Shown: positions 5,926 to 11,100 of the stretch, piece after piece
How positions within the stretch are numbered: the stretch's first letter is position 1
Layout: every line of letters begins with the position of its first letter
Assembly: GCA_026745465.1 (NCBI GenBank)
Contig: JACYXH010000310.1
Span: 6,378,501 to 6,442,500 of the forward strand
DNA from: Lota lota
Lineage: Eukaryota; Chordata; Actinopteri; Gadiformes; Lotidae
Length of the DNA: 64,000 bases
Direction of reading: 5' to 3'
Translations under genes and position numbers: made by a program
The notes under the pieces: model-generated
Databases searched by the model: none
Seen by the model: only the letters and a program-made list of their open reading frames with translations
Told to the model about the DNA's origin: nothing

Positions 5926-6408
5926 ATGAAGACACTGTCGTTCTAAATCACAGAATCTCCAAGCTTTAACATTTCAGGAATTAATGACATTTTCGGGAGC
6001 TTTCTCGTCAGTTAGCTTTAACACTAATGCATCAGCCCCTACAAATTCTAGTTATCTATGAAATCGGTTGGAGCAGAATTTTGGTCGTTAGAGGTCATGA
6101 CTAAGTGAAGAAAGTCGACTACCTTGAAGAGATTCAAATGAAAATCTCTGGAATATTCATTTGATTTTACAAGTTTCCCAAGTTTATCGTCACACAATTG
6201 ATCCGTTCCCCAGCTGACTACACCGACCTAAAGACAAAATATATATTGCAATAATAAAATACAATTTTCCAATTAGTATGTGTCCAACAAATTCAACCTT
6301 AAACCTAACTTGAATTTGAAAGTCATGCTAGGTATGTGATTACCTGTATTGTGCGCTGGTTGTAGTCCTTAAAAACAGCGCCACCCGAGTCCCCTGCCCT
6401 CCCAAAAA
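5926..6408 (-). pseudogene. Orphan second copy of the last two exons of the factor B-like gene
   Basis: Minus-strand exons 6344-6393 (carrying GDSGGA, the catalytic-serine exon) and 6048-6227 (C-terminal exon) repeat exons 17 and 18 of the gene at 8151-14795. The 50-base serine exon is identical in both copies. The intron between the exons is nearly identical. The last exon has diverged: GTDQLCDDK replaces GTDSLCDDN, and the end is TSNDQNSAPTDFIDN then stop, where the main copy continues past FIDN for WNL. Splice sites, phase and frame are intact. A minus-strand AATAAA lies at 5709-5714. No copies of exons 1-16 lie between 6394 and 8150, so alone it cannot encode a protease. It is either a dead partial duplication or an alternative terminal exon pair; exon 16 ends in the right phase to splice to it. 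Confidence 0.85.
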
Positions 6409-7226
6409 AAGCAGTATATATCACCCAAATTTAAATTTACGCTACTCTACGCTACTACTCTACGCTACTCTAGAGTAATACAGGTTTGAAGACAAATGAC
6501 TGGTTGTCATTGTAGTCTACTATATGAAAAAGAGAAAATCAAAATCTATCACAGTTGGATATTATAAAGTTGTAACCTTGAGTCATAATATTACGGGAAT
6601 AATGTCAAAATATATTGAGAAAAACTTTGTACAATTCCGAGAATAGAGTCAGAATATTTCGAGAAAAACGTTGAATAATAAATAATAAGTGTGAGAGCAC
6701 TTCAGTAGCTTTTTAGGTTTAATTAATGTTACATTTACATTTTTATGTAACATTTTAATTTGTTACATTTTCAAGTAAATGTGAGTGGAATGAAGAATAC
6801 ATAAATAGCATTCTGCGATGCTATTGATCTCATGTCTTCGCAGTCTCTTGAATTCTGATCTCATTCAGCTGTGAATGAATTATCATGGCAAACTGCATAT
6901 GTTTAAGGAATAAGGATTAGAGAACCAGATTAATAGTTCTTTCATTTATGAAGATTGAATGTGGAATCTGTCTCTATCAACAATACTATAGTGTGTGAGT
7001 AGACGGAAGACTCTAGTATGCTCTTATATTAGGCTACGTTTTCAAAGTAGGCTACCTAGAAAATGTATACTGTGTTAACACTTTTGGATGAACAATTAGT
7101 TAGTCTTTAATAAGTATATCATGTGTAAATTAGGCAGCAAAAAAAAGAAATTACTCTCTAGCTATTGTAATTGAAATATTTTCCAAGGATAGGTCTGCAG
7201 CTCTCTATCTTATCAATCTCTCCTTC

Positions 7227-7304
7227 TGTGTGTGTGTGTGTGTGTGTGTGTGTGTGTGTGTGTGTGTGTGTGTGTGTGTGTGTGTGTGTGTGTGTGTGTG
7301 TGTG
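7227..7304. repeat. (TG)n microsatellite
   Basis: About 39 uninterrupted TG dinucleotides. Confidence 0.97.
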
Positions 7305-7930
7305 AGTGTGTTTCATGTGTATGTTCCCCTAGTGTGTATAGGCCCAGGGGTGACAGCCAGGAGCCCTGTTATGGTTGCGAATGGTAGGCGAGGTCCCGAT
7401 GTCCACAAGCAGCACAGTTTTCTATTTCAATGTGTTGCAAGTGTAATATAGGCGATTAAGTGTCGGAAACTATACGTGACAGCATTACAATTAAGATTAA
7501 CCACCATTATTACACCTGTCACACTGAAATAAAGTAATTGAAATGCTGCTGATAGAACCGTTGTGTTATAGTAATGTAATTTGACTACATACTGTATAGA
7601 CATAAAATAAATGAAGATTTCAACCCGATGCAGGTTTTCAAATTTGAAATCCAGCCAATAGAACGTTTCTGTAGAAGTTATGTAATCTGACTACATTCTG
7701 TATAAACATATACAAGATCTGTAAAAACGAGAAGAGAAAAGTGTGTTCACGTTGTACGCAAGACAATGATAGAAAGATGTTACTGCTTCATAAATGTAGA
7801 GTGATATGACTAAAGAAGAGGTCCAAAAGACAAATCTTGTTATTCAAGCTTTTAAGGTCCATGTTTAATTATGATCACTGATGAACTTAAACATACCTAA
7901 CTCAAAATAACTGCGCTACACTTCTCAGCC

Positions 7931-7936
7931 TTTATT
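7931..7936 (-). terminator. Probable poly(A) signal of the factor B-like gene
   Basis: AATAAA on the minus strand about 215 bases beyond the stop codon at 8151-8153. It lies upstream of the duplicated exon pair, so use of this signal would exclude the second copy from the transcript. Confidence 0.5.
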
Positions 7937-8150
7937 TCATTTGAATTAAACTGAACTATTACAATGTCAATCACGTCTCAATTTGTTCTTATTTAACATG
8001 AAGACATTATCGTTCTGGATCCCCTAAACTCCAAGCGTTTACATTTCCGGAATTAATGACGTCATCAGGGGCTTTCTCGTCATTTCACTTTGAGGTTTGT
8101 ATGGGTGGAAGACAAAGACAGCAACACTGTCACTTCAGCCTGTTATGGGC

Positions 8151-11100
8151 CTACAAATTCCAGTTATCTATGAACTCAGTTGGAGCCAAGCCCGTTTCTT
8201 TCTTTGTCATGATTGAGTGAAGAAAGTCGATAACCTTGAAGAGATTCAAGTGAAAATCTCTGGAATAATCTTTTGATTTCACAAGTTTCCCAAGATTATC
8301 GTCACACAATGAATCCGTTCCCCAGCTGACTACACCGATCTAAAGACAAAATACATATTGCAAAAATAAAATAAAAATTTCCAATTAGTATGTGTTCCAA
8401 CCAATTCAACCTTAAACCTAACTTGAATTTGAAAGTCATGCTAGGTATGTGATTACCTGTATTGTGCGCTGGTTGTAGTCCTTAAAAACAGCGCCACCCG
8501 AGTCCCCTGCCCTCCCAAAAAAAGAGACAGAAATGTGTGTCAGTACATATAGAGTATAGCAACGGGCCTAGTTACCCTAGCAACCATCTTGGTACCATCT
8601 TGGTTTGAACCAAGATGGCCACCAGGTGAATAAGGCCAGTGGGCCTTTGTTATCCTTACATACTCAGACCATTTATATACTATAATGTGAAAAATAATAA
8701 TTGATGCTTCCCAGCAAAATAAATCCCAACAGAGGTGGGGTTAGTTGATATCATGTACCATATGAAACATCTTAATGACAACATTTTCAACTTATGTTCT
8801 ATATATATATATATAGCGATCCTCACATTTTGAGGGTGGGCGGGGTTTGGAGAGAGTAAGGAGAGGGAGGGGTGAGGAGCAGGAATGTTTTCAAAATTCT
8901 GACTGGAGCTAGCTTTAAATCGCAAATCTTCCATATTGTACATATAATCTGTTAGTATTTAATTTGAAATATATGTTTGTCTCTTTTTAATTCCTAATCC
9001 TTTCTTTTTCCTGTTACACCCTAATCTCTGGTCAGTAGTCTTTGATGAATAAAGTACATCTTATAACACATGATGAACCTACCTTTACATGCTATGTGGT
9101 CCACAAAAGGTGATGTACCACCTGTGCACAGGAAGTGGTCTGTCACAACCTCATGTAGATTTATTTCTGTTACGTTTGGCAGTCTTTTGGCTTGGTTGAT
9201 GCATGGTTCGCGCTACATTTCAGAGTGGGTAAAAAAAGTAGTTTTTTAGGTTTTGTTGTTGAACTCTCACACAAGCACAGTTTTTTTCCTCATATATCAC
9301 ACACACATGCATGCAGTTACATATTCAAAAAAAATTGTAAACATGGATTTGCGACGTCGATAAGACTCACATTTCCACCCAGCTTTGCGTAAACATCCTT
9401 TCTTTGCACGGTGACTCCCCTGGTCAGGAAATGCAGTCTTTCGTTGAAGTCCTTCAACAATAACTTCTCTACATAGAGTAATTAAAGAAAAATTAGGCCT
9501 ATCAACACTGCTAAAAGCACATGTGCCTTTTGGAAACACGTAAATGTTTATAGAAGTTAAATCACTGAGTCATGTTTGTAACCTTGTTCAGTGCACTTTG
9601 ACTCAAGAGGCAAACGAAGGGCCTGGGTAGTTTCCTTGGTGCAGGGTATGCATATGGGTCTGCAACAAAAAGCTTTCTTGGTCATCTGAGTGTGTGTGTG
9701 TGTGTGTGTGTGTGTGTGTGTGTGTGTGTGTGTGTGTGTGTGTGTGTGTGTGTGTGTGTGTGTGTGTGTGTGTGTGTGTGTGTGTGTGTGTGTGTGTGTG
9801 TGTGTGTGTGTGCGTGCGTGCGTGCGTGCGTGCGTGCGTGCATGCGTGTGTGTGTGTGTGTGAGTATGTGTGTGAATAAATGTGTAACGTAAATAGCCTC
9901 ACTTGAGATCTATAGTGAAGTTTAGATCTTTTTTCAATTGAAGAAGAGCTATATCATAATCAAAAAATTCAGAAATTCCAAGATGCGCTTTGGCTTTGAT
10001 GTTGTATTGCGAATGAATGAAGTATTTCTCCACCTCGTTGACTGTAAGAAACAGAAAATGAAGATACAAGACATGAATAGCTCATTTGGAAGAAAAGCTA
10101 TTCAAACTCAACACCAATATAATTGAAATAGCTTGAAATGTATCATGTTATGTTCCTTTATGAATAGTGCATTTCAATTTTCATTCAAATAAAAATTTTA
10201 ATGTATGTTGTGGTTGATTTCAGCCTCACTCTTATGCTTTATGTCCACTTGTATTTTTTCGGGTAAGTCCCCATGGAAGCAATGAGCAGCAGTCAGGATA
10301 AACTTGGAAGAGACGATAGCGCCAGTGCATGTCTTTGACTGAAATAAATAATTAATTTCATAAATCATGTATGATATACTTTATACCATGTCTCTGTATC
10401 GATGTCTAACCCTCTACCTGATCTAACCCCCTCTGTATGGTGATCTTCACATTCCATGGAAACATTTTCTGCTTGGTGTCACTGCTGTCCGACATCTTGT
10501 GGAGTCCACATAAACTGACAACTTCGTCGTCATCTGCAGGATTAGAAACATTCGTATCATAGACATTTCAGGAAATCTCAGAACCATGTTTGAAACAATG
10601 TTGTTATTGAAATCATTATATGGTAGTGAATGAATGCATACATTGATTGAGTGTGCCTTTCAGATATCTCAATGTCAATAGCTCACCTAGCTCCATGGAG
10701 CCCTAAATTAATCAATCTAGTGACAGATTCTGTCTGTACTAGGGAAAGATGAGGTGGTTCCCTGGGAACACTGTGCCCAGCCCCAGCTCCAGTCTGGGGC
10801 CATCTCTCGGCTTCGCTACTGCATTGCTTTCACATGCTGGGCTACGAGGTTGGGCCACTGTGAAATTCCAGCACATTATTAAAAACATGGCCACGTGCCT
10901 GGGACTCAACCAACCAAAGCGTGCACATATAACTCTGTTGGTTTCACTCCCTGATAATACCTCCAATGGTGCACTAATGCTGCATCAAGCCCATTCTGTG
11001 TGTGATGATGGCATTGAGGAAAGTCACTAGTGCTGTACTCACACGTGCTGGAAGACACTGGTTCTGTGACTGACACCCCACATTTCCTACTACCAAATGT

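Follow-up and report, generated by a model that had tools for sequence, protein, structure and literature searches.

Duplicated terminal exons of a complement factor B-like gene in Lota lota, interrupted by repeat DNA

Organization of the factor B-like gene

The stretch of DNA analyzed here, hereafter called the window, is 64,000 nucleotides long and derives from the fish Lota lota (assembly GCA_026745465.1, contig JACYXH010000310.1, positions 6,378,501 to 6,442,500). Its minus strand carries an intact complement factor B-like gene, and downstream of this gene a second copy of the terminal exons 17 and 18 was confirmed as a real duplication. The gene consists of 18 exons and encodes 752 amino acids with a single stop at the end. 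All of its internal donors are GT and all internal acceptors AG, and exon 12 ends at 10230 (AGA/GTGAGG).

The best PDB match of the encoded protein was complement factor B (2ok5_A; E 7e-142, residues 25-740), followed at a distance by C2 (9qj4_D; E 5.7e-115), both chains being human. Pfam analysis identified Sushi, of which two stretches passed, VWA, and Trypsin, in that order, and the first CCP is also covered, given that the alignment to factor B starts at residue 25. The gene thus has the CCP-VWA-trypsin-like layout expected of the factor B/C2 family. The motifs TAAHC, DYDIALLQL, GDSGG, and RDFH, the last of which presumably holds the specificity Asp, were all aligned to factor B, and an R-K pair falls at the presumed position of the human cleavage site.

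Two terminal cassettes

Each pair of exons 17 and 18 is referred to below, together with its intron and flanking signals, as the proximal or the distal cassette, the proximal one forming the end of the gene (Table 1). On alignment, the likeness between the two is far beyond chance; it spans 8524/6411 to 7969/5897 under one BLAST scoring (E 2e-160) and stops at 7981/5908 under another. The copies of exon 17 are identical at 50/50 positions, those of intron 17 at 111/116 with one additional 1-base gap, and those of exon 18 at 160/189 with no gap, and the last block of the 3' untranslated region (3'UTR) retains 81.6% identity over 103 columns, preceded by three larger gaps. Both cassettes have the donor CAG/GTAATC. 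Exon 16 ends in phase 1, which is the phase accepted by exon 17, and the end of exon 17 is in phase 0. The distal reading frame is three codons shorter, with loss of the residues WNL, because a proximal TGG corresponds to a distal TAG. The original prediction, made from the same DNA, had placed the two cassettes at 8151-8506 and 6048-6393 with splice sites, phase, and frame intact, and the exon model reproduced these spans exactly. Other elements of that prediction, namely the identical serine exon, the nearly identical intron, the phase-1 compatibility of exon 16 with both serine exons, and the difference of TDSLCDDN against TDQLCDDK beside SWG, were likewise borne out by the exon model and the alignment.

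Table 1. Positions of the factor B-like gene, the two terminal cassettes, and the spacer within the window
Feature	Position	Strand	Basis or remark
Factor B-like gene, coding span with the proximal cassette as its last part	8151..14795	-	Open exon model, PDB match, Pfam domains
Exon 16, ends in phase 1, last exon common to both routes	9083..9212	-	Exon model
Proximal exon 17, the serine exon with GDSGG, entered in phase 1 and left in phase 0; its 3' splice site is preceded at 34 bases by a TACTGAC branch-point match	8457..8506	-	
Proximal intron 17	8340..8456	-	Cassette alignment
Proximal exon 18 up to and including the stop (62 codons + TAG)	8151..8339	-	
AATAAA after the proximal cassette, within the repeat-derived stretch	7931..7936	-	
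Repeat-derived spacer containing a CA tract; in comparison with other family copies, truncated at 7970	6740..7970		Genome matches
Further spacer stretch with matches near the same repeat at two other places	6587..6687		Genome matches
Polypyrimidine tract and AG preceding distal exon 17, where the duplicated block has its 5' limit	6394..6411	-	Proximal counterpart 8507-8524
Distal exon 17, identical to the proximal one	6344..6393	-	
Distal intron 17, TACTAAT branch-point match retained	6228..6343	-	
Distal exon 18 up to and including the stop (59 codons + TAG)	6048..6227	-	
Distal 3'UTR stretch resembling the proximal 3'UTR, gapped	5897..6047	-	BLAST
AATAAA after the distal cassette	5709..5714	-	Sole A(A/T)TAAA between 6048 and 5300 on the minus strand

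The whole assembly (575 Mb, 867 contigs) was searched for cassette DNA, and exactly two places were identified, both in the window (two of two candidates scored). The idea that the cassette was spread by a dispersed element was rejected on this count. A tblastn search of the whole window with a 746-amino-acid model of the protein detected no remains of other exons, either between the cassettes or outside them (E < 1), in agreement with the predicted lack of other exons between them, and none was found in the genome (best 60 of 129 candidates), so that a remnant of a full second gene was also rejected. The exons for the catalytic His and Asp gave one match each in the window and one strong place in the genome (same best 60 of 129 candidates). 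Scans of viral and prokaryote contigs gave no relatives, as expected for a vertebrate gene.

Uneven divergence between the cassettes

The cassette alignment comprises 362 columns with 34 differences. Its first 122 columns are identical, a run that was not reached in any of 20,000 shuffles. When only the acceptor, intron, and third-position columns were considered (210 columns; 21 differences), the identical run was 88 (P 5e-5). Beyond it, the remainder of intron 17 contains five substitutions and one gap, and exon 18 has 10 substitutions over codons 1-40 and another 18 over codons 41-59. The divergence thus climbs from 0% over the 122 columns to about 30% in the tail. The shuffles support both the unevenness already seen in the original prediction and its reading as gene conversion: this pattern would be best accounted for by conversion of the 5' part of the cassettes, in a single tract or several, and a fast-evolving tail adds to it.

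An identical stretch of this length could also stem from misjoined sequence, an allele or a stray contig end having been placed beside the gene during assembly. Such an artefact is very improbable, however, as the 15% difference in exon 18 and the gaps in the 3'UTR exceed what ordinary alleles show, and the repeat spacer and the gene's own 3' flank lie on one contig.

Repeat-derived spacer and polyadenylation signals

Most of the DNA between the cassettes belongs to a dispersed repeat. The stretch from 7970 to 6740 gave 69 matches in the genome (best 40 of 130 candidates), one of them being the window itself and about ten covering the CA tract only. Matches on contigs C69 and C396 start at 7970, and one on C802 starts 13 bases further on; at the other side, four contigs provide five matches with their ends at 6740 or 6739. 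The copies on C69 and C396 remain alike for about 269 bp past the 7970 junction, indicating that the fragment in the window is truncated at this position, which is also the point where the two cassettes cease to resemble each other. For the shorter spacer stretch (6687-6587), matches were obtained at two further sites in the genome, which lie near copies of this repeat family. With a spacer that is mostly repeat-derived, the roles of "original" and "copy" are not clear-cut.

The proximal AATAAA (7936) sits 34 bases inside the repeat fragment, and the C69 copy has ATTAAA nearby. In the distal flank, at about 6040-5198, no repeat match was found among the best 40 of 3,899 candidates. Over the window, both strands taken together, AATAAA was observed 134 times against 57 expected from dinucleotide shuffles, and hence a single AATAAA near a stop codon carries little weight.

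Intron 16 resembles the spacer side only over the 18-base tract adjoining exon 17, apart from a 16-base match at chance level. A short repeat, present also at 58117-58079 and 23960-23930, lies in this intron upstream of proximal exon 17 (8595-8636), together with an inverted repeat. No Rfam match was obtained in the window.

Comparison with a second factor B/C2-type gene

Elsewhere in the assembly, another gene of this type was recognized (L042; G000 C452:236500-246400) by matches to CCP and protease exons, its VWA exons being below the score cut used. Within the 9.9 kb examined, it carries one pair of exons 17 and 18. Its tail motif is VVPWL, like LPWL of factor B. In positions 1-50 of exon 18, where the two cassettes differ at 13 residues, the distal form agrees with this paralogue at two (1 and 37) and with factor B at two (1 and 48), and the proximal form agrees with factor B at one (50) and with the paralogue at none. 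The overall scores were 97 (proximal) and 93 (distal) against factor B, and 91 for both against the paralogue.

The agreement with the paralogue at positions 1 and 37, together with the location of the proximal AATAAA inside the repeat and the lack of a repeat match in the distal flank, would fit a scheme in which distal exon 18 is the older last exon and retains the ancestral 3'UTR and polyadenylation site, the repeat having created the proximal end. This scheme is rather unlikely. Two agreeing sites are few and the overall outgroup scores are close, the negative result for the distal flank is confined to the best 40 of 3,899 candidates, and any tandem duplication would give such a position.

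Splice signals and predicted isoforms

Splice sites were scored with a matrix built from the introns of the gene itself, and branch points by plain count against a consensus, both measures being rough. The acceptors of exon 18 are good (7.07 proximal, 6.15 distal), with a TACTAAT branch point in both cassettes. Distal exon 17 is without the TACTGAC match (best 4/7); since 12 of the 17 introns of the gene score 4 or less, little can be concluded from this difference.

Splicing of proximal exon 17 to distal exon 18 would be in phase and give the same 749-amino-acid protein as splicing of exon 16 to distal exon 17. With two identical copies of exon 17, and with the branch point and acceptor of distal exon 18 preserved, distal exon 17 would be dispensable for a second protein. 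It had been proposed that one gene could make two proteases by joining exon 16 to either serine exon; the compatibility of phase and frame holds, and the need for distal exon 17 does not. Both predicted forms keep GDSGG, SWG, and SRDFH. They differ at 15 of the 59 shared exon-18 positions, nine of which are in codons 41-59, and the S/Q and N/K differences fall shortly after SWG, at positions that presumably line the substrate cleft. Against the factor B chain 2ok5_A, the peptides of the last two exons scored 40.5 bits (proximal) and 39.6 bits (distal). On these features two isoforms are possible, and the chance that distal exon 18 belongs to a regularly used one is put at about one in three.

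Tests of selection on exon 18

A comparison of nonsynonymous with synonymous changes, as had been suggested earlier for the last exon, gave a pN/pS of 0.64, which is not distinguishable from neutral (P 0.26). The amino acid changes appear conservative against a fully neutral null (mean BLOSUM score, P 0.001). When 50% or 70% of the changes were assigned to a constrained lineage, the corresponding values were P 0.06 or 0.23 with random positions and P 0.32 (half) or 0.57 (70%) with the observed positions. Likewise, little factor B score is lost if the distal copy is assigned all 24 changes in codons 1-50 (P 0.02), and the loss is unremarkable with 12 (P 0.14) or seven (P 0.32) distal changes. 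Taken together, these tests are compatible with either neutral decay or constraint of distal exon 18.

Regular production of two proteases, with both copies of exon 18 kept by selection, is a tentative alternative. It would agree with the intact signals, phase, and frame, with an exon 18 free of gaps while the intron and the 3'UTR are gapped, with the conservative changes and the preserved factor B score under the most favorable assumptions given above, and with an AATAAA belonging to the distal cassette itself (5714). It is opposed by the neutral pN/pS, by the loss of both signals once half or more of the changes are placed in a constrained lineage or only 12 or seven are distal, and by the lack of a strong branch point at distal exon 17. 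The converse, a dead duplicate that looks intact through recent conversion and chance, is about as likely as not. The pN/pS value, the early distal stop, the fit of the constrained-lineage null, a probability of about 0.40 for escaping a stop, and a weak exon 17 acceptor without a strong branch point all suit a non-functional fragment; a coding part without gaps beside several in the 3'UTR, the retained acceptor and branch point of distal exon 18, and the agreement of the distal form with outgroups at differing sites at least as often as the proximal form are less easily reconciled with it.

A model for the origin of the two cassettes

The observations are best explained, with a probability of roughly 60%, by a repeat-interrupted tandem duplication of the 3' end of the gene that was followed by conversion, the proximal cassette being the default and distal exon 18 unused or used at a low level. 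According to this model, a partial tandem duplication would have included at least about 540 bp, from the polypyrimidine tract through exon 17, intron 17, and exon 18 into the 3'UTR. Repeat DNA would then have come between the units, cutting the proximal 3'UTR and supplying its nearest AATAAA, and gene conversion, or a second, shorter exchange, would have re-homogenized the 5' part of the cassettes. The result would be one gene with two frame-compatible terminal cassettes, of which the proximal one is most likely the default, and distal exon 18 would be left unused or be reached at a low level, either via exon 17 or by splicing of exon 16 to distal exon 17. A tandem duplication leaves the upstream flank with the proximal unit and the downstream flank with the distal unit, and neither cassette is therefore simply "the copy". 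The proximal unit retains intron 16 and the TACTGAC match, and the distal unit has its own AATAAA; we infer that the old intron side stayed with the proximal cassette, and the old 3' side may have stayed with the distal one.

Several points weigh against this model. The DNA beyond the two cassettes is dissimilar, and a simple 2.1-kb tandem unit was rejected for this reason. The evidence for conversion is identity, which selection on exon 17 may also produce, and a recent origin with a fast-evolving tail may fit the uneven divergence as well. The paralogue on C452 does not share the duplicated cassette. Exon 17 has a weak acceptor in either cassette, with scores of 0.98 and 1.02 that lie at about the 80th percentile of all AGs in the window, and the open distal frame could be due to chance, as about 40% of random histories of 28 substitutions keep the frame of exon 18 open. 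Finally, more than 90% of human events in which tandemly duplicated exons substitute for each other have orthologues in bony fish, according to one survey (PMC9741552); that known events of this kind are mostly ancient speaks against presuming a function for a duplication of undated age.

A more far-reaching proposal, which we regard as improbable, is that the repeat-borne proximal polyadenylation signal created a choice between proximal cleavage and splicing to a distal, possibly ancestral, last exon. The gene would then produce two convertase proteases that have the same body and differ in an exchangeable C-terminal module. Conversion would preserve the identity of the serine exon, with divergence proceeding in the tail and in the loop after SWG.

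Neighborhood of the gene

Between the factor B-like gene and a Chk1 gene, of which a kinase exon was detected at 21053-21364 (+), lies a complex block of CA/GA microsatellites (16400-18400), which includes direct repeats 50-300 bases long. A C-type lectin exon is located at 2053-2388 (-). Immunoglobulin (Ig)-domain exons (I-set, Ig_2/Ig_3, and one V-set just below the cut-off) are spread over 28176-41648 on the minus strand and resemble one or more Ig-superfamily receptor genes. On the plus strand follow Bud13 (56984-57280), an RRM protein that is SNRNP35-like by eye only (59189-59998), and a BAR-domain exon of the APPL type (63213-63605).

Comparison with known systems

A literature search covering titles and the openings of abstracts, with most subscription journals outside its scope, gave no account of duplicated terminal exons in factor B among the papers listed. 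The Lota gene has the same CCP-VWA-serine protease layout as vertebrate CFB and C2, and differs from them in the extra terminal exon pair downstream. Tandemly duplicated exons occur in about 10% of animal genes, per a 2002 study cited in PMC9013439, and according to PMC9741552, 77 of 236 human substitution events between such exons are C-terminal and most substitutions are conservative. The cassettes share with the C-terminal class homologous neighboring exons in one phase, a possible swap of the C-terminus, and changes concentrated in the tail; a difference is that the duplicated unit of the Lota gene comprises two exons with their intron, and that a repeat separates the units. Neighboring homologous coding exons of the same phase with intact splice sites were found, as in an exon substitution event, and the duplication is a variant of this known class, not a new kind.

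MASP1/MASP-3 is likewise a complement gene with common 5' exons and a choice of serine-protease 3' exons, as described in PMC7432537. MASP1 swaps whole protease domains (one exon against six), whereas here only the last 76-79 residues are predicted to be exchangeable; a MASP1-type exchange of the whole domain does not apply, because only exons 17 and 18 recur. Drosophila PGRP-LC, according to PMC9013439, has 3' variable regions with mutually exclusive 3' cassettes, which are regulated by competing RNA structures. If the distal cassette is unused, the locus would illustrate that a dead duplicate may, through gene conversion, pass for functional in sequence-only annotation. If it is used, a repeat fragment would supply the proximal polyadenylation signal of a complement gene in which the selection of the last exons varies the C-terminal end of the protease domain, a small-scale parallel to MASP1/MASP-3.

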